From positions 1 to 64,000 of the forward strand of contig NZ_JACHFJ010000010.1 of assembly GCF_014201825.1 (NCBI RefSeq): DNA of 64,000 nt, given 5' to 3'. Of this stretch, positions 26,675 to 39,026 are shown one piece after another; within the stretch, counting starts at the first letter, position 1, and every line of letters starts with the position of its first letter. The notes beneath the pieces are model-generated. The model had not been told where the DNA came from. It saw nothing but the letters and a program-made list of their open reading frames with translations, and searched no databases. The DNA is from Acidocella aromatica. GTDB taxonomy: Bacteria; Pseudomonadota; Alphaproteobacteria; Acetobacterales; Acetobacteraceae. The translations under genes and the position numbers were made by a program.

Positions 26675-27563
26675 ACCCCGCCGCCGCGCGGATTACCTCG
26701 GCCTGCGCGAGGCGCTGGGCGACAGGCTTCTGCCCGTGCTGGTGGCGGCGATGAGTTTTCTCGCCGCCCTGGCCATGGCCGGGGCGCTGGCCAGCGCCAC
26801 GCTCGCCACGCGCTGGCAGGGGGATGCCGCCTCGCAGCTCACCATCCAGGTGCCGCAGCCCACCGCCCCGGATGCCAGCGGCAAGGCCCCGCGCCTCGAC
26901 TCGGTGATGGCGGCGCTGAAAACCATGCCGGACGTGGCGGATGAACAGGTGATGAGCCCGCAGGACGTGACCGCGCTGATCTCCCCCTGGCTCGGGGCCG
27001 ACCCGGCGCAGCTCGGCCTGCCCTTGCCGGGCGTGATCTCGGCGCGCTGGGTGGGCGCCGCCCCGCCGGATGCGCTCGGCCCAACGCTGGAAAAACTCAG
27101 CCCCGGCACACTGGTACAAACCGGCGCGCTCTGGGCCTCACGCGTGGCGGCCCTCACCACCAGCCTGCAGGCCTGCGCCGCCGCCATTCTCATCATCGTG
27201 GCGCTGGTCGCCGCCGCCGTGGTCGCCGTGGCCACGCGTTCGGGCCTCGCGCAGCGGCGCGAGACGATCACGCTAATCCACGCGCTGGGCGCGCTGGATG
27301 ACGACATCGCCGGGCGCTTCGCCGCGCGGATCACCTTGCTCACCCTCGCCGGCGCCGCTGCCGGGGCGGTGCTGGCCCTGCCCGTGCTGGCTTGGCTGGG
27401 GGCTCTGGCCGCCCCCTTCGCTGGCCCGGCGCAGATCAACGACGTCTTCAACCTGCCGCCCGCGCTCATGTTCGCCCTGCCGGGGCTGCCCATCATCGCC
27501 GCCGCCATTGGCTGGGGCACCGCCCAGCTCACCGTACGCGGCTGGCTGCGGAGCCTGCCCTGA
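26664..27563 (+). CDS. ftsX: Cell division protein FtsX
   Basis: The protein has 299 aa with the FtsX layout: a cytoplasmic N-terminus, a first transmembrane segment at about residues 25-48, a periplasmic domain to about 165, then three membrane segments (about 170-190, 222-248 and 265-290). FtsX couples ATP hydrolysis by FtsE to periplasmic hydrolase activation. Start ATG at 26664 lies within ftsE; its stop overlaps the ATG of the YdcF-like gene (TGATG). Sequence conservation is low, as usual, and position after ftsE carries much of the call. Confidence 0.88.
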   Translation: MRNEPRRRADYLGLREALGDRLLPVLVAAMSFLAALAMAGALASATLATRWQGDAASQLTIQVPQPTAPDASGKAPRLDSVMAALKTMPDVADEQVMSPQDVTALISPWLGADPAQLGLPLPGVISARWVGAAPPDALGPTLEKLSPGTLVQTGALWASRVAALTTSLQACAAAILIIVALVAAAVVAVATRSGLAQRRETITLIHALGALDDDIAGRFAARITLLTLAGAAAGAVLALPVLAWLGALAAPFAGPAQINDVFNLPPALMFALPGLPIIAAAIGWGTAQLTVRGWLRSLP

Positions 27564-28192
27564 TGGCTCGCCGCCCGCTCCGGCGCCGCCGCGCCTCGCC
27601 CCTGCGCTGGCTGCTGCGCGCGGTGCTGGGGCTGGCGGGGCTGTGGCTGACGGGCTTTGCCCTCTTCCTCGTTGCGGTATTCACCGCCGAACCGCCCAAC
27701 CCGCTCCCGCCCGCCGACGGCATCGTGGCCCTGACCGGCGGGGATAACCGGATCAGCGCCGCTCTCGCCTTGCTGACCGAGCATCAGGCGCCGCTGCTGC
27801 TCATCTCGGGCGCCGGGCGCGGCACCTATCTCGGCGATTTCACCGCCGACGACACCGCCGCCATCACCCGCTATGCCAGCGCCATCACGCTCGGCCACAT
27901 GGCCGGTACCACGCATGGCAACGCGCTGGAGGCCGCCGCCTGGGCCAAGGCGCACGACATGCACTCGCTGATCATCGTGACCGCCGACTACCACATGCCC
28001 CGCGCCATGCAGGAGATGCGCCAGAAGCTGCCGGGGGTGACGCTGATCCCCGATCCTGTCCGTCCGCCCGCCATGCGCAAGATGATCAGCCTGCAGACCC
28101 TTAGGTTGCTTGCCGGGGAGTATACGAAGTACCTAACCGTGCGCGTCGGGCTTGGCAGGCTCGCCGCGGGACTGCTCAACACGGAATCCTGA
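27563..28192 (+). CDS. YdcF/SanA-family (DUF218) envelope protein
   Basis: The protein has 209 aa. A basic N-terminus (ARRPLRRRRAS) precedes one membrane segment (about residues 17-39). The DUF218 domain follows with ADGIVALTGGDNRISAAL, LLISGAGRG and the conserved TADYHMPRAM near the C-terminus. Members are implicated in envelope integrity, but no reaction is established. The start is coupled to the ftsX stop (TGATG), and plsC follows 10 nt after its stop, so ftsEX-ydcF-plsC is probably one transcript. Confidence 0.82.
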   Translation: MARRPLRRRRASPLRWLLRAVLGLAGLWLTGFALFLVAVFTAEPPNPLPPADGIVALTGGDNRISAALALLTEHQAPLLLISGAGRGTYLGDFTADDTAAITRYASAITLGHMAGTTHGNALEAAAWAKAHDMHSLIIVTADYHMPRAMQEMRQKLPGVTLIPDPVRPPAMRKMISLQTLRLLAGEYTKYLTVRVGLGRLAAGLLNTES

Positions 28193-28202
28193 TTCTAAAC
28201 AC

Positions 28203-28889
28203 ATGCGTTTTCTCCGTCACACCGCTTTCCAGGCCGTCATGATCGGCAGCGGCACCGTTCTCAGCCTGTGGGCGGCATGCTTCGCCCAGTTCCGACCGGA
28301 TGGCATCGTGCGCAGCGCCCAGCTCTGGGCGCGGATCTGCCTGTGGGCCTTGCGCGTCTTCTGCGGCATCACCGTAAAGGCCGAGGGGCTGGAGAACCTG
28401 CCCGAGGGGGGCGCGATCATCGCGGCGCAGCACCAATCGGCGCTGGATATCCTGATCTGGCTGACGCTGGTGCCCCGCCCGGCCTTCGCCTTCAAGCGTG
28501 AGCTGCGGCGCATCCCCGTGTTCGGCTGGCTGCTGGAGCCCGCGGGGATGATCCCGGTAAACCGTGGCGGCGGCCGCGCCGCGCTGCGCGAGCTGGTGAC
28601 GGGTGCCAGGCACGCCGTCGAGGCTGGGCATCAGGTCATCATCTTCCCCGAAGGCACGCGCCTAGCCCATGGTGCGCGCGGGGAACTGCGCCATGGCATC
28701 GCCGCCGTGGCCCAAACCGTACCCGCGCCGCTGCTCCCCGCCGCCACGGATTCCGGCAAATGCTGGGGGCGCAACTCCTTCAGCAAAACCGCCGGGACCG
28801 TGCATATCTGGCTCAAGCCCGCTTTGCCGCACGGGCTGAAGCGCGAGGAGCTGCTGCGCGAGCTGGAGACGACCTACTACGGGGCTTAA
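28203..28889 (+). CDS. plsC: 1-acyl-sn-glycerol-3-phosphate acyltransferase
   Basis: The protein has 228 aa. It acylates lysophosphatidic acid to phosphatidic acid at the inner membrane. Conserved acyltransferase blocks are present: HQSALD (HX4D), FKRELRRIPVFGWL, GMIPVNRGGGRAAL and FPEGTRLAHG. A membrane segment lies near the N-terminus (about 8-28). ATG at 28203 was chosen because it directly opens the family N-terminus (MRFLRHTAFQ). The 3' end overlaps the convergent MFS gene by 4 nt. Confidence 0.93.
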   Translation: MRFLRHTAFQAVMIGSGTVLSLWAACFAQFRPDGIVRSAQLWARICLWALRVFCGITVKAEGLENLPEGGAIIAAQHQSALDILIWLTLVPRPAFAFKRELRRIPVFGWLLEPAGMIPVNRGGGRAALRELVTGARHAVEAGHQVIIFPEGTRLAHGARGELRHGIAAVAQTVPAPLLPAATDSGKCWGRNSFSKTAGTVHIWLKPALPHGLKREELLRELETTYYGA

Positions 28890-30001
28890 GCCACCGTTTC
28901 CGCCAAGAAGAACACCGCGGCGAGCAGGGCGGCGTCGATCCCCAGGGCCGAGGCGAGACCCAGATGATTCGCCACCAGCCCGATCACCACCGGCCCGGCC
29001 AGGAACCCGGCATAACCCAGCCCCACCACCGCCGGCATGGCATGGTGCGCGGCCATTTGCGGCACACGGGCGGCGGCGCTGAACACCAGCGGGGCGATGT
29101 TGCCGGTGCCAAACCCGACCAGCCCAAACCCCAGCACGCCCATCCAGCCGGAGGGGATGAGAATGGCGAGCAGGAAGCCGAGCACGGCCACTGCGCAGCC
29201 CAGGCGCATGACCCAGGGCGCCCCCAGCCGCGCCGCCACGGCGTCGCCCGAAAGCCTTGCCGCCGTCATCGCCACGGCGAAGGCGGCGTAGCCCAGCGTC
29301 GCCGTATCCAGCGGCATGTTGCGTGAGAAGCGCAGGAAGATGGTGCTCCAATCCGTGGCCACGCCCTCGGTCATGAAGCAGGTGAAGCAGCAGATCCCCA
29401 GCAGCAGCGTGGCCCGGTTGGGCAGGGCGAAGCGCTTGCCGTCGGCGGGCGGGTCCTCTTCCTTGCCCGCCAAACGCGGGGTCTGCGAGAGGATCAGCAA
29501 TATCGTGGACGCGGCCAGCACAGCGCAGCCTGCATTGGTCACGCCAAGGCGCAGCAGCAGGCTGCTCGCCAGCGCCACCACCAGCGTGCCGAGGCTGTAG
29601 CAGGCATGATAACCCGACATCTGCAGCTTGCCGCTCAAGCGCTCCACCACCGCGCCCTGGGCGTTGAGCGAGATATCCAGCACCCCGAACATGGCACCGT
29701 AGACGAACAGAATCGCGGTGAACAGCAGCGGCGAGGGCGCCACGGTAAGGCCCGGCAGCAGCAGCCCCACGGCCAAACCCGCCGCCGCCAGCACAACACG
29801 GCTGCCCCAGCGCGCCAGGGCCATGCCCGCCAGCGGAATAACCAGCACCCCGCCCAACCCGCCGGCGAACAGGATCAGCCCGAGCGTCCCGTCATCCAGC
29901 CCGAAACGGATTTTGGTGAAGGGGATGGTAATGGCCCAGACGGAGATCCCGACACCGGCCATGCCGAAGAACAGCCGCATCGTCCATGATCTATTCCCCA
30001 T
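28886..30001 (-). CDS. MFS transporter
   Basis: The protein has 371 aa with 11-12 hydrophobic segments and the glycine-rich, charged loops of the major facilitator superfamily, including GMALARWGSRVVLAAAG at the 2-3 loop position. It resembles YbjJ-like carriers, but substrate cannot be assigned. ATG at 30001 follows GGGAAAT at short spacing. It lies 43 nt downstream of hpnL on the same strand and may be read with it, though a link to hopanoids is only positional. Confidence 0.75.
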   Translation of the reverse strand: MGNRSWTMRLFFGMAGVGISVWAITIPFTKIRFGLDDGTLGLILFAGGLGGVLVIPLAGMALARWGSRVVLAAAGLAVGLLLPGLTVAPSPLLFTAILFVYGAMFGVLDISLNAQGAVVERLSGKLQMSGYHACYSLGTLVVALASSLLLRLGVTNAGCAVLAASTILLILSQTPRLAGKEEDPPADGKRFALPNRATLLLGICCFTCFMTEGVATDWSTIFLRFSRNMPLDTATLGYAAFAVAMTAARLSGDAVAARLGAPWVMRLGCAVAVLGFLLAILIPSGWMGVLGFGLVGFGTGNIAPLVFSAAARVPQMAAHHAMPAVVGLGYAGFLAGPVVIGLVANHLGLASALGIDAALLAAVFFLAETVA

Positions 30002-30044: not shown

Positions 30045-31028
30045 TCAGATGGTCGCCTTGAGCTTGCGCGCCTCGAGTCCCTGCCAGACGATGAGCACCG
30101 GCACGGCGACAACGAAGTCCCGCGCGCGGCGCAGCAGAGAGAGGGAGAGGGCGACATCGGGCGGCACGCCGAAGATGCCGCCGAGCGCGGTATAGGCGGC
30201 TTCCTGGATGCCAGCACGGCCGGGAATGAAGAAGGCCAGCGCCATGATCGCGTGCAGCATGGCCTCGACACAAACGGCATCGGCGAAGGAGAGCTGCACG
30301 CCCAGCGCGTGGAAGCCGATGAAGGAGGCGGTGGCGGTGCCGAACCAGCAGAACAGGTGGAACAGCGCCGAGAGGGCCAGGCGGTCCCGCTCGCCATACA
30401 TAATGTCCAGCGCCTGCTGCAGACGGTCGATATTGGCGGCGGCCCCCTCGCCCGTGGTTCCGGCGATGCGTAGCGCCAAAGCGCGGAAGATCTTCGCCCC
30501 CGAGCCGCGCTGCGCCAGGATCAGCCCAACCCCCAGCACCACCGCCACACACAGCCCGATGGCCACGGGCAACAGCAGCTCCGAGCCCGGCGCCTTGCGC
30601 GCGAGAATGGACAGCCCGATGCCGATGAACACGAGCTGGGCCAGGAATTCGGTGGTGACATCGCCCAACGTGGAGGCGATGGCATCGGCGGTGGAAACCC
30701 CGCCCATGGTGATGACCCGCGCCCCAAGCACAAAGCCACCCACCTGCGAGAAGGGCAGGAACTCGCCCGTGGCATCGCGCACGGCGCGGCCCCAGGTGCA
30801 GAGCCAGTAGCTGCCCATCTGGTGCGAGCGCAGCAGCATGCGCCAGCACAGCCCCAGCCCGGCCACAATGCCGAGCTGGGCCAGGACATAAGCGCCGAAA
30901 CCCGCGCGGCTCACCGAGGTGAGCACCCGCAACACATCCGCCGCCCCGAAATAAATGACCAGGACGGTTATGACCACGATACCCGCGAGCGCAAAGCCCG
31001 CGGGCAGGAGTTTCATCTTTTGGCTCAA
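30045..31028 (-). CDS. hpnL: HpnL-family integral membrane protein
   Basis: The protein has 327 aa with about eight membrane segments and belongs to the lysylphosphatidylglycerol-synthase-TM/UPF0104 group. The C-terminal block FIPGRAGIQEAAYTALGGIF followed by LSLSLLRRARDF is characteristic. HpnL members co-occur with hopanoid genes, and the best guess from the family is a role in hopanoid or lipid traffic; the biochemical activity is unknown. It follows the ferritin-like gene by 7 nt on the minus strand, in a pair divergent from hpnA-shc. Confidence 0.8.
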   Translation of the reverse strand: MSQKMKLLPAGFALAGIVVITVLVIYFGAADVLRVLTSVSRAGFGAYVLAQLGIVAGLGLCWRMLLRSHQMGSYWLCTWGRAVRDATGEFLPFSQVGGFVLGARVITMGGVSTADAIASTLGDVTTEFLAQLVFIGIGLSILARKAPGSELLLPVAIGLCVAVVLGVGLILAQRGSGAKIFRALALRIAGTTGEGAAANIDRLQQALDIMYGERDRLALSALFHLFCWFGTATASFIGFHALGVQLSFADAVCVEAMLHAIMALAFFIPGRAGIQEAAYTALGGIFGVPPDVALSLSLLRRARDFVVAVPVLIVWQGLEARKLKATI

Positions 31029-31035
31029 GACTTTG

Positions 31036-31932
31036 CTACTTTTTCGGCCTGATGAAGAGGCGCGCGAGGCGCGCCAGGGTTGGAGCGGTGACCGGCCTCT
31101 TCAAACGCGGGTCGTAGCCCGCCATTCGCCGGTCGTTCTCCACCAAGCATATATCAATCAGCTTGGCCGGGTCCATCTCACCGGCGATCGACTCGGAGCC
31201 GTTCACCGTGAAATTTGCGTCAGCTCCCTCCAGCCCATCCACATCCTTGGCCAAGCCGATGCGCTCCCACAGCAGGTAAGCGTACACCGCCGCCACCTTC
31301 AGCTCGAAGAAGGGGCGCTTCCACCACGCCATCGTGGCGCGCTTCCAGGCGATGAAGTTGGTGAAGAAGAGGATATGCCGCGCCTCCTCCTGCACCACCG
31401 GCTCGAAGGTCTCGACCAGCGCCTCGGGGAAGTAACCGGACTGACGGGCCATTTCGAACAAGCCGAAAGCGAAGAAGCTATCGAGGCATTCGGAATAGCC
31501 GGTGACCAGGAAGCCCCATTCGGCATCGTTCGGCAGGGCGTACTCCTCGTCCGGCTTCACCACAATGCCATACGCGGCGACGAGGCGGGAGAGTACATCG
31601 CGGTGGCGGCGCTCCTCGCCCGCCATGTGCACCAGCGCGTCGCGCAGCGGTTTTTCCTTCACCGTGTGGGAGAAGAACTCAATGCGGGCGCCGGCCTTGT
31701 TCTCGGTCTGCACCGCGATGTCCCAGATCGGCAAGGAGGTGATGCGCTTCAGTGCGTCCGGCTCCAGCTTCGGCCAGTCCAGCACGGCAGGCCTGTAGGG
31801 GTTGTAGGTCGCCGCCATCAGCTCGGTGAACATCTCGAAATGTTCCTGGCTGCCGGGCCGGGCCGGGCCGGGCTTCGGGAACGCCCAGTGCCGGGCGTTG
31901 TAATCGGCGGTTGCTACGGCGGTATCGTCCAT
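31036..31932 (-). CDS. Ferritin-like diiron-carboxylate protein linked to the hopanoid cluster
   Basis: The protein has 298 aa and no signal peptide. Two carboxylate-histidine motifs, EERRH (residues 106-110) and EEARH (182-186), with nearby acidic residues (such as Glu77, Glu85, Glu149 and Glu160), are the pattern of a four-helix ferritin-like diiron site. Ferritin-like proteins of this size include oxygenases and desaturases, and no specific subfamily was recognised. The start given is the second of tandem ATGs, with GAGG just upstream; ATG at 31944 is the upstream alternative. It lies 7 nt before hpnL and 110 nt from divergent hpnA. A role in hopanoid or membrane-lipid oxidation is inference from context. 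Confidence 0.65.
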   Translation of the reverse strand: MDDTAVATADYNARHWAFPKPGPARPGSQEHFEMFTELMAATYNPYRPAVLDWPKLEPDALKRITSLPIWDIAVQTENKAGARIEFFSHTVKEKPLRDALVHMAGEERRHRDVLSRLVAAYGIVVKPDEEYALPNDAEWGFLVTGYSECLDSFFAFGLFEMARQSGYFPEALVETFEPVVQEEARHILFFTNFIAWKRATMAWWKRPFFELKVAAVYAYLLWERIGLAKDVDGLEGADANFTVNGSESIAGEMDPAKLIDICLVENDRRMAGYDPRLKRPVTAPTLARLARLFIRPKK

Positions 31933-32042
31933 CATAAACCTCATGGTTGCGCCAAAAGCGTCAATGCGTTCTACAGGCCCCAGACCGGCGCTGATATTAC
32001 GGGGCGAGGCGGCGGCGTTGCAAACCTGAGGGGGCTTGGATT

Positions 32043-33041
32043 TTGGCGCGAGGCGATCTGGTGCTGGTCACGGGAGCGACCGGTTTTGTTGGCGCGGCGG
32101 TGGCGCGGACATTGCAGCAGGCGGGATTTTCGGTGCGCGTGACCGCGCGGGCCGGCTCTGACCTCAGGAATCTCAAGGATTTGGCCGCCGAGATCGCCGC
32201 ACTCGATCTCAACGACCCCACGGACTTCGCCCCGGCGCTGGCCGGGTGCCGTTACCTGTTTCATGTCGCCGCCGATTACCGGCTCTGGGTGCCGGACGTA
32301 GCCGCCATGCGCAAAGTGAATATCGACGGCAGCGTGGCCCTGCTGCGCGCCGCCCAGGCCGCCGGAGTGGAGCGCAGCGTGTACACCAGTTCCGTGGCGG
32401 CACTTGGTCTGGCCGAGGATGGCAGCCCGGCCGATGAGCACACGAAGGTAAAGCCCGCGCACCACGTAGGCGCCTATAAGCAAAGCAAGTACGACGCCGA
32501 ACAGGCCGTGCGCGCGCTCGCGCAGACCGGGCAGGACATCGTGATCGTCAACCCCTCCACTCCCGTGGGACCTGGCGACGTGAAACCGACCCCGACAGGG
32601 CAGATGATTCTCGACGCCGCGCGGGGCAAAATGCCCGCCTATGTGGATACCGGCCTCAACGTGGTGCATGTGGACGATGTGGCGGCAGGCCATCTGCTGG
32701 CGCTGGAAAAGGGCCGAACGGGCGAGGCTTATATATTGGGTGGCGAGGATCTGATGCTGGGCGAGCTGTTCGCCATGATCGCGCGCATGACCGGGCGGGC
32801 TGCGCCGAGTCTGCGCCTGCCCATCGCGCCGCTGATGCCGCTGGCCTGGGTGATGGAGCGGATCGCCGAGATCACCGGCAAGACGCCGCTGATGACCCCG
32901 GACATCCTGAAAATGGCCCGCAAGAAGATGTTTTTCTCCTCCGCCAAGGCCAAGGCCGAGCTGGGCTACGCCCCCCGCCCGGCCGAGGCCGCCGTGGCCG
33001 ATGCGCTGACTTGGTTCAGAACTGAGGGACTGCTCGCATGA
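32043..33041 (+). CDS. hpnA: Hopanoid-associated sugar epimerase HpnA
   Basis: The protein has 332 aa and is an extended short-chain dehydrogenase with VTGATGFVGAAVAR at the N-terminus and the catalytic YxxxK in AYKQSKYDAE. FHVAADYRLWVPD and NPSTPVGPGDVKPTPTG are typical of HpnA. Its exact substrate in hopanoid side-chain or related sugar metabolism is not known. The start is TTG at 32043, supported by GAGGGGG (32028-32034) at 8 nt. The stop overlaps hpnB (ATGA). This is the first gene of the hpnA-shc run. Confidence 0.92.
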   Translation: MARGDLVLVTGATGFVGAAVARTLQQAGFSVRVTARAGSDLRNLKDLAAEIAALDLNDPTDFAPALAGCRYLFHVAADYRLWVPDVAAMRKVNIDGSVALLRAAQAAGVERSVYTSSVAALGLAEDGSPADEHTKVKPAHHVGAYKQSKYDAEQAVRALAQTGQDIVIVNPSTPVGPGDVKPTPTGQMILDAARGKMPAYVDTGLNVVHVDDVAAGHLLALEKGRTGEAYILGGEDLMLGELFAMIARMTGRAAPSLRLPIAPLMPLAWVMERIAEITGKTPLMTPDILKMARKKMFFSSAKAKAELGYAPRPAEAAVADALTWFRTEGLLA

Positions 33042-34141
33042 TCGTCTTTCTCGCCTTTCTCATCTGGCTGTATCTGTTTTTCCTGCATGGGCGGTTCTGG
33101 GAATCCGCTCCCGAGCTGCAACCCGCCACGCCGCTCGGGCACCCGGATGTGGACATCATCGTCCCTGCGCGGGACGAGGCCGAGACCATCGGGCCGGTCA
33201 TCGCCTCGCTGGTGAACCAGGATTATCCCGGCAAGTTCCGCGTCATCCTGGTGGACGACAACTCCACCGACGGCACGGTCGAAAAGGCCGGGCAGCATGA
33301 GCGCCTGACCATTATCACCGGCCAGCCCAAGGAGATCGGCTGGTCCGGCAAGCTCTGGGCGCTCTCCCAGGGCATCAAGGCCAGCACCGCCCCGGTGCTG
33401 ATGTTCTCGGACGCCGACATCACCCACGACCCGCGCCATTTGGCCACGCTGGTCTCGCGGCTGGAGATGCCCAAGGCGGACATGGTCTCCGAGATGGTGA
33501 AGCTGAACTGCACCTCCTGGCCGGAGCGCTTCCTGATCCCGGCCTTCGTGTATTTCTTCCAGATGCTCTACCCCTTCGCTTTGGCGAACGCCCCGGCCTC
33601 GCGCGTGGCGGCGGGGGCTGGCGGCACGGTGCTGATCCGGCGCGAGGCGCTGGAGCGCATCGGCGGCATCGAGAAGATCCGCGGCGCGCTGATCGACGAT
33701 TGCTCGCTGGCGCGCGAGGTGAAGAAAGGCGGGCCGATCTATATCGGCCATTCCGGCCTCGCCACCTCCATCCGCCCCTACCCGCATGTGCGCGATATCT
33801 GGAACATGATCACCCGCACCGCCTTCACCCAGCTGCATTACTCGGCGCTGTGGCTGGTGGGCGCCATCGCCGGGCTGACGCTGGTCTGGCTCGTCGCGCC
33901 CTGCGCCATCCTGTTCTCCGGCTTCGGCTGGCGGTTCTTCCTGGGCCTCGCCACCTTTGGCCTCGCCTGCCTGAGCTATTTGCCCACGCTGCAACGCTAT
34001 AAGCAGCCTTATTACTTCGCCCTTGCGCTGCCGGGCATCGCGTTGTTCTACATGGCCGCGACCATCGCCTCCGCCGTGAATTACTGGCGCGGCACCGGGG
34101 CGCAGTGGAAGAGCCGCGCCTATGGAGGGGAAGCCAAGTGA
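33038..34141 (+). CDS. hpnB: Hopene-associated glycosyltransferase HpnB
   Basis: The protein has 367 aa and is a GT2-fold glycosyltransferase. An N-terminal membrane segment precedes IIVPARDEAETIGP, VDDNSTDGT and the metal-binding SDADITHDP. C-terminal membrane segments lie at about 270-300 and 315-345. HpnB is found in hopanoid clusters, but its acceptor is not established. It overlaps hpnA (ATGA), and its stop overlaps the GTG start of hpnC. Confidence 0.92.
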   Translation: MIVFLAFLIWLYLFFLHGRFWESAPELQPATPLGHPDVDIIVPARDEAETIGPVIASLVNQDYPGKFRVILVDDNSTDGTVEKAGQHERLTIITGQPKEIGWSGKLWALSQGIKASTAPVLMFSDADITHDPRHLATLVSRLEMPKADMVSEMVKLNCTSWPERFLIPAFVYFFQMLYPFALANAPASRVAAGAGGTVLIRREALERIGGIEKIRGALIDDCSLAREVKKGGPIYIGHSGLATSIRPYPHVRDIWNMITRTAFTQLHYSALWLVGAIAGLTLVWLVAPCAILFSGFGWRFFLGLATFGLACLSYLPTLQRYKQPYYFALALPGIALFYMAATIASAVNYWRGTGAQWKSRAYGGEAK

Positions 34142-35007
34142 TCGCCAACGACAACGCCAAGCCCCAGAAGCCACAGGCCGCCGCCGGGGTGGAAGCCTGG
34201 TCCGGCAAGGACAAGGGGGACGAGAACTTCCCCGTCGGCTCGCTGCTCATCGTCAAGGCGCTGAGGCCGCATATCCACGCCTACTACACCTTCGCCCGCA
34301 ATGCCGACGATATCTCGGACAGCCCCAGCCTGAGCGCGGCCGAGAAGATCGCCCGGCTGGACGCGATGGAAGCCGTGCTGACCGGCGCGCAGGAAGAGGG
34401 CAGCCCGAGCGCGGCCAAGCTGCGCGCTAGCCTCGCGGAGACGGGGGTGGATGCCATCCATGCCCGTGAGCTGCTGATCGCCTTCCGCCAGGACGCGACC
34501 AAGACCCGCTACGCCAACTGGGAGGAGCTAATGCAGTATTGCCGCTACTCCGCCGCCCCGGTGGGCCGCTATGTGCTGGCTTTGCATGGCGAGAGCGAGG
34601 CGACCTGGCCGTCATCCGACGCGCTCTGCGCCTCGCTCCAGGTGCTCAACCACATGCAGGACTGCGCCAAGGATCTGCGCGACCTCGACCGCTGCTACAT
34701 CCCGCAGGACTGGCTGGGCGAGTTCGGCCTGGGCACCGACGCCATCGCCCGCGGCGAGACCGTGCCCGATCTGCGCGTGGTGTTCGACCGCATGCTGGAG
34801 CTGACGGAGAAACTCAACGAGCAAGCCGCCGAACTGCCGCGTCTTGTGAAATCCCGCCGCCTGCGCGTGGAAACCGCCGTAATCGCGAGGCTGGCCAAGC
34901 GCCTCACCGCCAAGCTTCGCTCGGGCGACCCGCTGGCCACCCGCGTGAAGCTGACCAAACTCGATTTTATCGCCGCCACGCTGGCGGCGCTGAGGTACGC
35001 CGCGTGA
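34138..35007 (+). CDS. hpnC: Hydroxysqualene synthase HpnC
   Basis: The protein has 289 aa of the trans-isoprenyl-diphosphate synthase (squalene/phytoene synthase) fold. HpnC converts presqualene diphosphate from HpnD to hydroxysqualene. The first Asp-rich motif is YTFARNADDISDS, the second lies in MQDCAKDLRDLDRCYIPQDW. The GTG at 34138 has an excellent ribosome binding site, GGAGGGG (34124-34130), and overlaps the hpnB stop. Its own stop overlaps hpnD (GTGA). Confidence 0.93.
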   Translation: MIANDNAKPQKPQAAAGVEAWSGKDKGDENFPVGSLLIVKALRPHIHAYYTFARNADDISDSPSLSAAEKIARLDAMEAVLTGAQEEGSPSAAKLRASLAETGVDAIHARELLIAFRQDATKTRYANWEELMQYCRYSAAPVGRYVLALHGESEATWPSSDALCASLQVLNHMQDCAKDLRDLDRCYIPQDWLGEFGLGTDAIARGETVPDLRVVFDRMLELTEKLNEQAAELPRLVKSRRLRVETAVIARLAKRLTAKLRSGDPLATRVKLTKLDFIAATLAALRYAA

Positions 35008-35843
35008 CCCCTGAAGATACCGCCTATGTGACGGAGTTGGTGAAGCGCTCCGGCACCTCATTCTACCACGGCATGAAGATCCTCTCGCCCGAGCGGCGGG
35101 ACGCGATGTACGCGATCTACGCCTTTTGCCGGGTGGTGGACGACATTGCCGACGAGGAAGGTCGCGACTTCGCCGCCAAGCAGCAGGAGCTGGAGGAATG
35201 GCGCCAGCGCATCGCCGGGCTGTACCGGGGCGAAGCCGACGGGCCGATCCCACGCGCGCTGCTGGACACCGTGCGCGACTACAAGCTGCGGGCCGAGGAT
35301 TTCATCGCCATCATCGACGGCATGGAGATGGATGCGGGCGAGGCGATCATCGCCCCCAGCCTCGCCGAATTGGACCTATACTGCGACCGCGTGGCCTCTG
35401 CCGTGGGCCGGCTCTCGGTGCGCGTGTTCGGTGATTCCTCGGCCAATGCCGACGCGGTGGCCCACGCGCTGGGCCGCGGGCTGCAACTCACGAATATTTT
35501 ACGCGATGTGCCGGAAGATGCCGAACGCGGCAGGCTGTATCTGCCACGCGAGCTGCTCCAGGCCGCGGGCGTGCCGCTCACCCCGCAAGGCGCCCTACAA
35601 TCTCCCGCATTGGCGCAGGCATGTTCAAAACTCGCCGACATGGCGGAGCAATATTTCGCAGATGCCAACGCCGCGATGGCACGCTGCAACAGCAAGGCCA
35701 TGCGCCCAGCCCGGCTGATGGAGGAAAGCTACCGTCCGCTACTGGCTATTTTGCGGCGGCGCGGCTTTAATTACTCTGAAGGCCGCATTACTCTGCCGAA
35801 ATGGCGCAAGTTGATGATGGCGGTACGCCTGTTGCTGGCGTGA
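35004..35843 (+). CDS. hpnD: Presqualene diphosphate synthase HpnD
   Basis: The protein has 279 aa and is the second squalene/phytoene-synthase-fold enzyme. It couples two farnesyl diphosphates to presqualene diphosphate. Asp-rich motifs are AFCRVVDDIADEEG and LTNILRDVPEDAERGRLYLP, each more canonical than in HpnC. The start is GTG at 35004, overlapping the hpnC stop; the long open frame upstream is a shadow of hpnC. hpnE follows after 10 nt. Confidence 0.93.
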   Translation: MTPEDTAYVTELVKRSGTSFYHGMKILSPERRDAMYAIYAFCRVVDDIADEEGRDFAAKQQELEEWRQRIAGLYRGEADGPIPRALLDTVRDYKLRAEDFIAIIDGMEMDAGEAIIAPSLAELDLYCDRVASAVGRLSVRVFGDSSANADAVAHALGRGLQLTNILRDVPEDAERGRLYLPRELLQAAGVPLTPQGALQSPALAQACSKLADMAEQYFADANAAMARCNSKAMRPARLMEESYRPLLAILRRRGFNYSEGRITLPKWRKLMMAVRLLLA

Positions 35844-35853
35844 GGGAGAAGCC

Positions 35854-37038
35854 ATGAGCGTCCATGTGATTGGTGCCGGCCTTGCCGGTCTTGCGGCGGC
35901 CTGCCAGCTTACCGAACTGGGTCACCATGTGGTGCTGTTCGAAGCCGCTCCGCAGGCGGGCGGACGCGCACGCTCTTATTTCGACAAGCAGCTCGGCTGC
36001 CGTATCGATAACGGCAACCACATGTTGCTCTCGGGCAACATCTCGGCGCTCTCCTACCTGCACCGCATCGGGGCGCGGCGCTCGCTCATCGGCCCGGCGG
36101 AACCCATCTTCCCGTTCCGTGACACAACCACCGGCGAGGCCTGGACCCTGCGGCTGAACCAGGGCGGCTTTCCATGGTGGATCTTCTCCCCCTCGCGGCG
36201 CGTGCCGGGCACCAGGCTGTACCAGTATCTCTCCCTGCTGAAGCTGCGCCGCGCCACCAAGGCCGACAACGTGGCCTCGCTGCTCGGCAATTCCGGCCAG
36301 CTTTATCACCGGCTGCTCAAGCCGCTGGCCATCTCGGCGCTCAACACCATGCCCGAGCACGCGGCGGCCCAACCGCTGGGCTCCGTGCTGGCCGAGACCA
36401 TCGAGCGCGGCGGCTATGCCACCCTGCCCCGCTGGGCGAAGCTCGGGCTGTCGGAAACCTTCATCGACCCCGCGCTGGAATGGCTGCGCGAGCGCGGCGC
36501 GGATATCCGCTTCGGCGAGCGTGTGACCCAATTGCAGCCCGGCCAAGCCACCGTGGTGGCGGTGCCGCCCTGGGTGGCCCGCGAGCTGATCCCCGGCCTG
36601 ACCGTGCCGACTGAGTTCGAATCCATCTGCAACCTGCATTTCCGTGCGCAAATGGACCCGGGCGAGGCCGGATTCTGGGGCCTGACCGGAGGCTTGAGCG
36701 AGTGGGTGTTCGCCCGCCGGGATGTGATCTCCGTCACCATCTCCGCCGCCAACCGCTACATGAACATGGACCAGGAAACAATCGCTGCGCGGGTGTGGGA
36801 CGAACTGGCCCGCACCTTCGAGCTGGACCGCGCCGTGCCACCCAACCGGGTGCTGTGGGAGAAGCGCGCCACCATACTCGCCTCGGCCGAGCAACTGGCG
36901 CTGCGCCCCGGCACGCGCACGGCGAACCCGAGCGTGGTGCTCGCGGGCGATTGGACCGATACCGGCCTGCCCGCGACCATCGAAGGCGCGATCCGCTCCG
37001 GCAACGCGGCGGCCATGGCGCTGGTCAATCCGCTCTAG
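35854..37038 (+). CDS. hpnE: Hydroxysqualene dehydroxylase HpnE
   Basis: The protein has 394 aa and is an FAD-dependent amine-oxidase/desaturase-like protein. The dinucleotide-binding motif VIGAGLAGLAAA opens the protein, followed by GGRARSYFDKQLGCRIDNGN and the C-terminal FAD motif VVLAGDWTDTGLPATIEGAI. HpnE reduces hydroxysqualene to squalene. ATG at 35854 follows GAGGGAGAAGCC. With HpnC and HpnD it completes the three-enzyme bacterial squalene route. Confidence 0.93.
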   Translation: MSVHVIGAGLAGLAAACQLTELGHHVVLFEAAPQAGGRARSYFDKQLGCRIDNGNHMLLSGNISALSYLHRIGARRSLIGPAEPIFPFRDTTTGEAWTLRLNQGGFPWWIFSPSRRVPGTRLYQYLSLLKLRRATKADNVASLLGNSGQLYHRLLKPLAISALNTMPEHAAAQPLGSVLAETIERGGYATLPRWAKLGLSETFIDPALEWLRERGADIRFGERVTQLQPGQATVVAVPPWVARELIPGLTVPTEFESICNLHFRAQMDPGEAGFWGLTGGLSEWVFARRDVISVTISAANRYMNMDQETIAARVWDELARTFELDRAVPPNRVLWEKRATILASAEQLALRPGTRTANPSVVLAGDWTDTGLPATIEGAIRSGNAAAMALVNPL

Positions 37039-37103: not shown

Positions 37104-39026
37104 ATGCTTGGCATGAACGCCATTCTCGACACCGCGATTGAACGCGCCCGGGCCTCTCTCGTCAACGAGCAGCGGCCCGACGGGCATCTCTGCTACGAGC
37201 TGGAGGCCGACGCCACCATCCCGGCCGAGTACGTGCTGCTCGAGCATTACCTCAACCAGATCGACGAACCCCTGCAACAGAAGATCGGCAATTACCTCCG
37301 CCGCATCCAGGGCGATCACGCCACCAACCCTGGCGGCTGGCCGCTCTTCCACGGCGGCAAGTTCGACCTTTCAGCCTCGGTGAAGGCCTATTACGCGCTG
37401 AAGATCATCGGCGACTCCCCGGACGCGCCTCATATGGCCAAGGCCCGCAAGGCGATCCTGGCTCATGGCGGGGCGGAGCGGGCCAATGTGTTCACCCGCA
37501 TCCAGCTCGCTCTATTCGGCGCCGCCCCGTGGGAGGCCTGCCCGGTCGTGCCCATCGAGGCCGTGCTGATGCCGGACTGGTTCCCCTTCACCATGCGCAA
37601 GGTCTCGTACTGGTCGCGCACGGTGATGACGCCGCTGATGTACCTGACCGCGAAGAAGCCCATCGCGCGCAATCCGCGCAAGGTGTTCGTGGACGAGCTG
37701 TTCACCCGCCCGCAGGCACAGATCCGCGACTGGATCCGCGGCCCGTACAAATCCAACTGGGGCCCGGTGTTCAAGGTGCTGGACAGCGTGCTGCGCGTCG
37801 CCGAGCCCTATTTCCCGCACCACTACCGCGAGAAGGCGATCGACAAGGCCATTGCCTGGACCATCGAGCGCCTGAATGGCGAGGACGGGCTGGGCGCGAT
37901 CTACCCGGCCATGGCCAATTCCGCGATGATGTTCGACCATCTGGGCGACAAGGCGCATTTCGACATCGCCATGGGCTCGATCAAGAAGCTGCTCGTCATC
38001 AAGGACGATGAAGCCTATTGCCAGCCCTGCCTCTCACCGGTGTGGGACACCGCCCTCGCCGGGCACGCGCTGATCGAGTCCGGCGCTACGGATGCCACCA
38101 AAGCCGCGTGCGACTGGCTGATCCCCCGCCAGGAGCTGAATGTGGTGGGCGACTGGGCGGACAACACCCCAGGCACGCGCCCGGGCGGCTGGGCCTTCCA
38201 GTACAACAACCCGCATTACCCTGATGTGGACGACACCGCCGTGGCCGCCATGCTACTGCACCGCGCGGGCGACCCGAAATATGCCGAGTCCATCTCCCGC
38301 GCGCGGGAATGGATCATCGGCATGCAGTCCACCAACGGGGCCTGGGGCGCGTTCGACATCAATAACGACAACCAATACCTCAACCACATCCCCTTCGCCG
38401 ACCATGGCGCGCTGCTCGACCCGCCGACCGAGGATGTCACCGCGCGCTGCATCTCCTTCCTGGCCCAGCTTGGCAAGCCGGAAGACCGCCCGGCCATCGA
38501 GCGCGGGATCAAGTATCTGCGCGAGACCCAGATGCCGGACGGCTCCTGGTTCGGCCGCTGGGGCACCAATTATATTTATGGCACGTGGTCGGTGCTGTGC
38601 GCGCTGAACGCCGCCGGGGTGGCGCAGGACGACCCGATGGTGAAACGCGCCACGTCCTGGCTGATCTCCAAGCAACGCGCGGACGGCGGCTGGGGCGAGG
38701 ATTGCGAATCCTATGGCGACGCCCCCGCCGGCGAGTTCCACGGCTATGCCGCGCAGAGCCTGCCGAGCCAGACGGCCTGGGCCGTGATCGGGCTGATGGC
38801 GGCGGGACTGGCGGACCATGACGCCGTACGCCGGGGCATCGCCTTCCTCCAGGCGAGCCAGGACGAGCAGGGCAGCTGGACCGAGCAGGCGTATAACGCC
38901 GTCGGCTTCCCGCGCGTGTTCTACCTGAAATATCACGGCTATCCGCGCTTCTTCCCGCTGCTGGCGTTGAGCCGCTACAAGCAGCTGATGGCCAGCAACG
39001 ACCGGATCGTGAAGTTCGGGTTCTAG
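37104..39026 (+). CDS. shc: Squalene-hopene cyclase
   Basis: The protein has 640 aa (637 if ATG at 37113 is used). It cyclises squalene to hopene and diplopterol at the membrane. The catalytic DXDD motif is intact as Asp374-Val-Asp-Asp in YPDVDDTAVAA, and several QW repeats are present (QSTNGAWGAF, QMPDGSWFGRWG, QRADGGWGED, QDEQGSW). Family-typical FNNPHYPD-like and HGYPRFFPLLALSRYK elements are seen. Neither ATG has a clear ribosome binding site. It ends the hopanoid run, and the IS630-like remnant begins 13 nt after its stop. Confidence 0.96.
   Translation: MLGMNAILDTAIERARASLVNEQRPDGHLCYELEADATIPAEYVLLEHYLNQIDEPLQQKIGNYLRRIQGDHATNPGGWPLFHGGKFDLSASVKAYYALKIIGDSPDAPHMAKARKAILAHGGAERANVFTRIQLALFGAAPWEACPVVPIEAVLMPDWFPFTMRKVSYWSRTVMTPLMYLTAKKPIARNPRKVFVDELFTRPQAQIRDWIRGPYKSNWGPVFKVLDSVLRVAEPYFPHHYREKAIDKAIAWTIERLNGEDGLGAIYPAMANSAMMFDHLGDKAHFDIAMGSIKKLLVIKDDEAYCQPCLSPVWDTALAGHALIESGATDATKAACDWLIPRQELNVVGDWADNTPGTRPGGWAFQYNNPHYPDVDDTAVAAMLLHRAGDPKYAESISRAREWIIGMQSTNGAWGAFDINNDNQYLNHIPFADHGALLDPPTEDVTARCISFLAQLGKPEDRPAIERGIKYLRETQMPDGSWFGRWGTNYIYGTWSVLCALNAAGVAQDDPMVKRATSWLISKQRADGGWGEDCESYGDAPAGEFHGYAAQSLPSQTAWAVIGLMAAGLADHDAVRRGIAFLQASQDEQGSWTEQAYNAVGFPRVFYLKYHGYPRFFPLLALSRYKQLMASNDRIVKFGF

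Follow-up and report, generated by a model that had tools for sequence, protein, structure and literature searches.

Our analysis of a 64,000-nucleotide stretch of the Acidocella aromatica genome (contig NZ_JACHFJ010000010.1, positions 1 to 64,000; hereafter the window) points to a gene on its minus strand (31036-31944) whose ferritin-like product, here named FLP, belongs to a hitherto undescribed family of hopanoid-dependent, diiron-type proteins, as far as the open literature shows. We put at roughly three in four the probability that FLP is a diiron oxidase acting on hopanoids, while the full statement, in which this oxidase performs a desaturation, is more tentative and falls somewhat short of an even chance. 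Hopanoids are the bacterial counterparts of cholesterol. Two of their oxidations have been left without genes, namely the desaturation of the rings (delta-6, delta-11) and the hydroxylation at C-31/C-30, which leads to bacteriohopanepentol (BHpentol) and bacteriohopanehexol (BHhexol) (PMC12583986). The first-pass annotation of the window had assumed that no desaturase was assigned to the unsaturated hopanoids, and the literature agrees (PMC12583986). In 2025, 54 alphaproteobacteria were phenotyped in the most thorough survey so far, whose authors report finding no candidates next to the hpn clusters (PMC12583986), and the FLP family is a candidate at precisely such places. Unsaturated hopanoids, BHpentols and BHhexols are membrane lipids as well as geological biomarkers without known genes. 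FLP is present in the cultivable and phenotyped Acetobacter, Kozakia baliensis and Gluconacetobacter diazotrophicus and absent from other bacteria; if our reading is true, it would provide a genomic marker of O2-dependent hopanoid modification and an aid for reading sediment lipids.

Association of FLP with squalene-hopene cyclase and hpn genes

The distribution of FLP follows that of squalene-hopene cyclase (SHC, encoded by shc). In a base sample of 348 evenly drawn Pseudomonadota genomes, FLP was identified in 14, all within the 46 genomes that possess SHC (Fisher 7e-14 by genome and 3e-12 by genus, values uncorrected for kinship and derived from samples that are not independent). SHC was also present in 21 further FLP-bearing genomes reached via named contigs, in the 4 Sphingomonadaceae of 150 that carry FLP (2 of the 4 being new to the count) and in 42 further FLP-bearing Acetobacteraceae. 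Homologues common in genomes without shc, a pattern that the first-pass annotation had named as contrary to its proposal, were thus looked for, and SHC was found in every one of the ~79 FLP-bearing genomes checked. Since genomes with SHC and without FLP are common, FLP should be regarded as accessory to the pathway.

In addition, at least seven arrangements, from unrelated lineages, place FLP among hpn genes: hpnL-FLP/hpnA in Acidocella; hpnI-J-K-FLP, then hpnL where visible, in Sphingomonadaceae and G040; FLP-hpnL-hpnM/hpnN-hpnJ-hpnI in an alphaproteobacterial metagenome-assembled genome; FLP adjoining hpnB and hpnA in Cupriavidus metallidurans CH34; hpnI-[hpnL-like]-FLP-hpnJ in Caballeronia; hpnA/FLP near shc, hpnN, K, J and I in Massilia forsythiae (G298); and, in G192, hpnA/FLP1 at one side of the cluster with FLP2/hpnN at the other (FLP2 being the paralogue described below, and FLP1 the FLP proper). 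In several genera of Acetobacteraceae, shc, hpnN or hpnL is found a few kb away from FLP. Note that the FLP of Caballeronia zhejiangensis (L066 9824-10812, in an hpnI-hpnJ cluster) is split over two frames with no annotated product, and is probably a pseudogene.

Loci that lack FLP were found to be otherwise in order. In two Acidocella genomes (G007 and G021, loci L219 and L220), which are natural deletion strains, FLP is cleanly absent, hpnA and hpnL are divergent and adjacent, and SHC is retained; in FLP-negative Sphingomonadaceae, hpnK is followed directly by hpnL where the two are visible. Judging from these clean absences in both groups, FLP behaves as a cassette that a working hopanoid locus can gain or lose. 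Inspection by eye of the hpn clusters of FLP-negative Sphingomonadaceae revealed no replacement oxygenase. FLP resembles the hopanoid accessory genes hpnL, hpnA, hpnB and hpnM, whose function is unsettled, in that it is tied to the hpn pathway by linkage and by dependence without being essential to it, but differs from them by having neither an hpn name nor a family model and by being of oxidase type rather than a transporter or a sugar-type enzyme.

A ferritin-like diiron-type family and its paralogue

The assignment of FLP as a ferritin-like diiron-type protein is well supported by its invariant ligands together with its predicted fold. The first-pass annotation had described a ferritin-like protein of 298 residues with the motifs EERRH and EEARH, and this description holds: the frame is intact, the motifs occupy residues 110-114 and 186-190, and ExxH is invariant in both. 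Over 125 FLP1 orthologues and 15 FLP2 paralogues, E81, E110, E111, H114, E152, E186, E187 and H190 are invariant, among which E81, E111xxH114, E152 and E187xxH190 constitute, as read from the sequence, the classic ferritin-like diiron ligand pattern. The AlphaFold model is all-helical (mean predicted local distance difference test, pLDDT, 83.6; predicted TM-score, pTM, 0.85), and the predicted ligand-bearing helices (73-92, 98-124, 141-169 and 174-204) are consecutive. In Foldseek, the top ranks were held by class Ib R2/NrdF and, weakly, by stearoyl-acyl carrier protein (ACP) desaturase (1oq9/1afr), with R2lox placed lower; none of these matches was below 1e-3, and TM-scores against the three ranged over ~0.37-0.53. 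FLP shares with them two ExxH motifs, two more Glu and a predicted four-helix core, but its sequence matches none of the solved members.

Indeed, no match was obtained in the PDB with the single FLP protein or with a profile, in Pfam or PDB sequences for the R2 and R2lox families, in the acyl-ACP desaturase Pfam family, or among the NCBIfam families. A Pfam search to E 10 returned nothing beyond two sub-threshold similarities, AurF (PF11583, 17.6 bits against a gathering cut-off of 29.6) and Rubrerythrin (PF02915, 18.0 against 22.8). The weak AurF match recurs in 25 of 31 family members (best E 0.00095), and Ferritin_2 is also found among the sub-cut-off family matches. FLP thus displays a weak similarity to AurF-type N-oxygenases and Rubrerythrin around the metal-ligand helices, but it scores below the curated cut-offs, with short stretches only being matched. 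No transmembrane segment was predicted in FLP (peak 19-residue hydropathy 1.18), and the conserved Trp/Arg-rich WWKRPF (~207-213) could be a membrane-surface patch. A search of the open-access literature, which did not cover subscription papers, found no ferritin-like or diiron hopanoid enzyme.

The paralogue FLP2 was identified in 24 of 170 Acetobacteraceae genomes, only together with FLP1, and the two genes are adjacent in 22 of them. It has about one third identity to FLP1 and shares its diiron ligands, and 10 otherwise fixed positions differ between the two. Their open frames overlap in K. baliensis (L217 8906-10848), they are in frame in G349, and in G582 they are fused into a single frame of 645 aa that contains both metal sites (L215 8413-10350). 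Such a fusable oxidase pair suggests either two related modifications or a heterodimer. The FLP1 tree contains two supported main clades, with FLP2 as a deep sister branch: clade A comprises acetic acid bacteria and a few Burkholderiales, and clade B comprises Acidocella, Sphingomonadaceae, Rhodoblastus and most Burkholderiaceae. Both clades mix classes and thereby indicate transfer between lineages, and they may differ in product. It should be noticed that three further families of alphaproteobacteria (G068, G375 and G043) contain long-branch relatives (L079, L080 and L096; 41-44% identical), away from the hpn genes that were searched, and that G068 and G375 possess SHC and lack HpnJ.

Candidate reactions and competing explanations

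In the reading that we favour, FLP would be a diiron oxidase, soluble or located at the membrane surface, that depends on O2 and acts on bacteriohopanepolyols (BHPs) after cyclisation. Electrons supplied by a ferredoxin or reductase of general use would let its carboxylate- and histidine-bound Fe2 site (E81, E111/H114, E152, E187/H190) activate O2, and two hydrogens would be removed from the lipid, the likeliest reaction being desaturation of the hopane rings at delta-6, perhaps at delta-11 with FLP2. FLP would be an accessory module, probably co-produced with hpnL, whose gain or loss leaves the core pathway undisturbed. It is here that we infer iron content, O2 chemistry, substrate and the C-H bonds attacked. 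A bolder version, which we hold to be rather doubtful, makes FLP1 and FLP2 together the missing hopanoid oxidases, i.e., soluble diiron desaturases of the pentacyclic core that acetic acid bacteria would use in coupled or fused form (for delta-6 and delta-11), with a chemistry that has until now been attributed to membrane histidine-box enzymes.

The phenotypes in the 2025 survey, on which the percentages below rely, are in part consistent with desaturation. Unsaturated BHPs reach 82% in Acetobacter pasteurianus, 56% in K. baliensis and 49% in G. diazotrophicus (PMC12583986), and FLP was identified in all 41 of the Acetobacter species sampled, in K. baliensis and in G. diazotrophicus PA1 5 (the identities of the last two, as those of M. 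forsythiae and Methylobacterium G087, rest on 100% plasmid matches). Burkholderia cenocepacia, from which putative hop-6-ene BHPs have been reported (PMC8560942), carries FLP as well. Tested members of the family of Rhodoblastus and of Methylobacterium contain 0-1% unsaturated BHPs (PMC12583986); FLP was found in 7 of 253 genomes of that family and in none of the Methylobacterium genus sampled.

Several observations weigh against this reading. Acidocella aminolytica contains 3% unsaturated BHPs with 21% pentol and hexol (PMC12583986). Afipia broomeae reaches 43% unsaturated BHPs (PMC12583986), and none of 292 genomes from the presumed Afipia family (f31, a name that is inferred) carries FLP. 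FLP is carried by 4 of 16 SHC-positive Sphingomonadaceae, yet the members tested all show <=1% unsaturation. Most acetic acid bacteria and many Burkholderiaceae have FLP away from their hpn genes, and it is unlinked to the hpn genes searched (flanks to 8-10 kb) in Acetobacter, Rhodoblastus, most Paraburkholderia and B. cenocepacia/multivorans. No electron donor was identified for FLP. Moreover, the tested acetic acid bacteria also make pentols and hexols, and the best phenotype match consequently cannot separate desaturation from hydroxylation. The co-occurrence with unsaturated hopanoids, named as a check in the first-pass annotation, fits Acetobacter, Kozakia, Gluconacetobacter and Burkholderia, is weak in Acidocella and leaves Afipia unexplained. 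The candidate hopanoid oxidase or desaturase of that annotation gains partial support from the hopanoid link (SHC co-occurrence and recurrent hpn linkage) and from the diiron assignment, with hydroxylation to BHpentol/BHhexol being nearly as good a fit. Altogether, the phenotypes lean, not strongly, towards ring desaturation rather than side-chain hydroxylation, with exceptions each way (Afipia and Acidocella for the former, Sphingomonadaceae for the latter).

As a hydroxylase of the side chain, a role that we consider rather unlikely, FLP would convert bacteriohopanetetrol (BHT) derivatives to BHpentol (C-31) and perhaps, with FLP2, to BHhexol (C-30). The survey leaves the BHpentol/BHhexol step likewise without a known gene (PMC12583986), and the pentol and hexol content of A. 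aminolytica, set against its low unsaturation, accords with such a role. All five tested species of the presumed f31 family contain 0% pentol and hexol, as expected from the absence of FLP in this family, in which Afipia breaks the desaturase fit. In addition, FLP lies within the hpnI-J-K operons of Sphingomonadaceae, an order that makes BHpentol cyclitol ether, and the FLP-positive species B. cenocepacia makes putative BHpentol cyclitol ether (PMC8560942). However, pentols or hexols were present in 6 of 8 BHP-producing Sphingomonadales tested, a frequency well above that of FLP in SHC-positive Sphingomonadaceae, and G. diazotrophicus, with both FLP1 and FLP2, contains only 6% pentol and hexol (PMC12583986). 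The BHpentol cyclitol ether of Rhodopila strain LVNP, grown phototrophically without O2 and aerobically with the condition of the liquid chromatography-mass spectrometry sample unstated, also speaks against an O2-dependent hydroxylase. Note that FLP as an obligatory cyclitol-ether gene, a neighbour of hpnJ/hpnK, was ruled out by 8 FLP-positive genomes without HpnJ. Overlapping with hydroxylation by FLP rather than exclusive of it is the improbable case in which a membrane 'sterol desaturase' of the fatty acid hydroxylase superfamily makes the unsaturated hopanoids and FLP has another role. For the missing step to which FLP is also a candidate, such proteins were proposed in Methylovulum and in acetic acid bacteria (PMC6460317 and PMC12583986), and the unsaturation of Afipia needs a non-FLP enzyme if FLP is absent there; unlike FLP, these candidates belong to an integral-membrane histidine-box family, have a phenotype match that their authors call imperfect, and are encoded outside the hpn clusters (PMC12583986).

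Slightly less probable again is another hopanoid modification, or a division of reactions (e.g., desaturation and hydroxylation) among FLP1 clade A, FLP1 clade B and FLP2. The two supported clades, the deep FLP2 branch and the 10 positions that separate FLP1 from FLP2 are in line with such a division, as is high unsaturation, so far named only for clade A members and low in the clade B Acidocella; the hop-6-ene BHPs reported for B. cenocepacia, whose FLP is a clade B copy, speak against it, with the caveat that a second copy was not sought on the other replicons of this species. Acyl-ACP, fatty acids and quinones are substrates of related diiron folds. FLP could modify another membrane lipid (fatty acid, ornithine lipid or ubiquinone) and travel with hpn genes as a membrane tuner, for which its lack of linkage to these genes in many genomes would also count, but fatty acids and quinones occur everywhere, while SHC accompanies FLP in all ~79 genomes and 0 of the SHC-negative genomes tested carry it; we judge this explanation quite improbable. 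The least probable one, a role outside lipid chemistry, would make FLP a ferritin-like protein of iron or oxidative stress metabolism or one that works together with HpnL in export. Stress and iron proteins are not expected to track SHC, the six ligands and the surrounding residues are strictly conserved, fused paralogue included, and some genomes have FLP far from hpnL, even though hpnL is often its neighbour and its sequence is best matched, below cut-off, by the generic ferritin-like families Rubrerythrin and Ferritin_2. Diiron oxidation of hopanoids remains our preferred reading.

The FLP locus of the window

The FLP frame is intact and may start at either of two adjacent ATGs, giving 302 aa from the first (31944) or 298 aa from the second (31932), with an AGG a few bases upstream. 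Its codon usage is gene-like (GC content at third codon positions 0.86, compared to 0.81-0.87 in the neighbours). As stated in the first-pass annotation, the gene is directly upstream of hpnL, which lies on the same strand 7-19 nt after the end of FLP, and divergent from the hpnA-hpnB-hpnC-hpnD-hpnE-shc run; HpnL, HpnA, HpnB, HpnC, HpnD and HpnE were assigned by curated NCBIfam models, all above the cut-offs (Table 1). The closest named relative is from Acidocella sp. (96% protein identity). FLP was found in 34 of 36 other Acidocella genomes searched, fragments counted (33 certain), and the hpnA-FLP-hpnL order is preserved in the Acidocella loci long enough to reveal it; this conservation across the genus and of the gene order excludes a chance open reading frame.

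Table 1. Genes of the FLP locus in the window, and the paralogue pair of G. diazotrophicus on its own locus
Feature	Position	Strand	Remarks
FLP, ferritin-like diiron-type protein	31036..31944	-	302 aa; ligands E81, E111, H114, E152, E187, H190
hpnL, LPG-synthase-TM-like membrane protein	30045..31028	-	TIGR03476 229.8 bits vs cut-off 195.65; PF03706
hpnA	32043..33041	+	TIGR03466 478.8 bits; start codon uncertain
hpnB	33038..34141	+	TIGR03469 461.8 bits
hpnC	34105..35007	+	TIGR03464 282 bits
hpnD	35007..35843	+	TIGR03465 324.6 bits
hpnE	35854..37038	+	TIGR03467 364.6 bits
shc (hpnF), squalene-hopene cyclase	37110..39026	+	TIGR01507 739 bits at 37128-38993; start approximate
FLP1-FLP2 pair, Gluconacetobacter diazotrophicus	L216 8183-10038		

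On the other side of hpnL, genes for a DUF218 protein, a PlsC-type acyltransferase and a major facilitator superfamily (MFS) protein (27563-30001) adjoin it, and the same order was observed in other Acidocella (L031, L032, L219 and L220).
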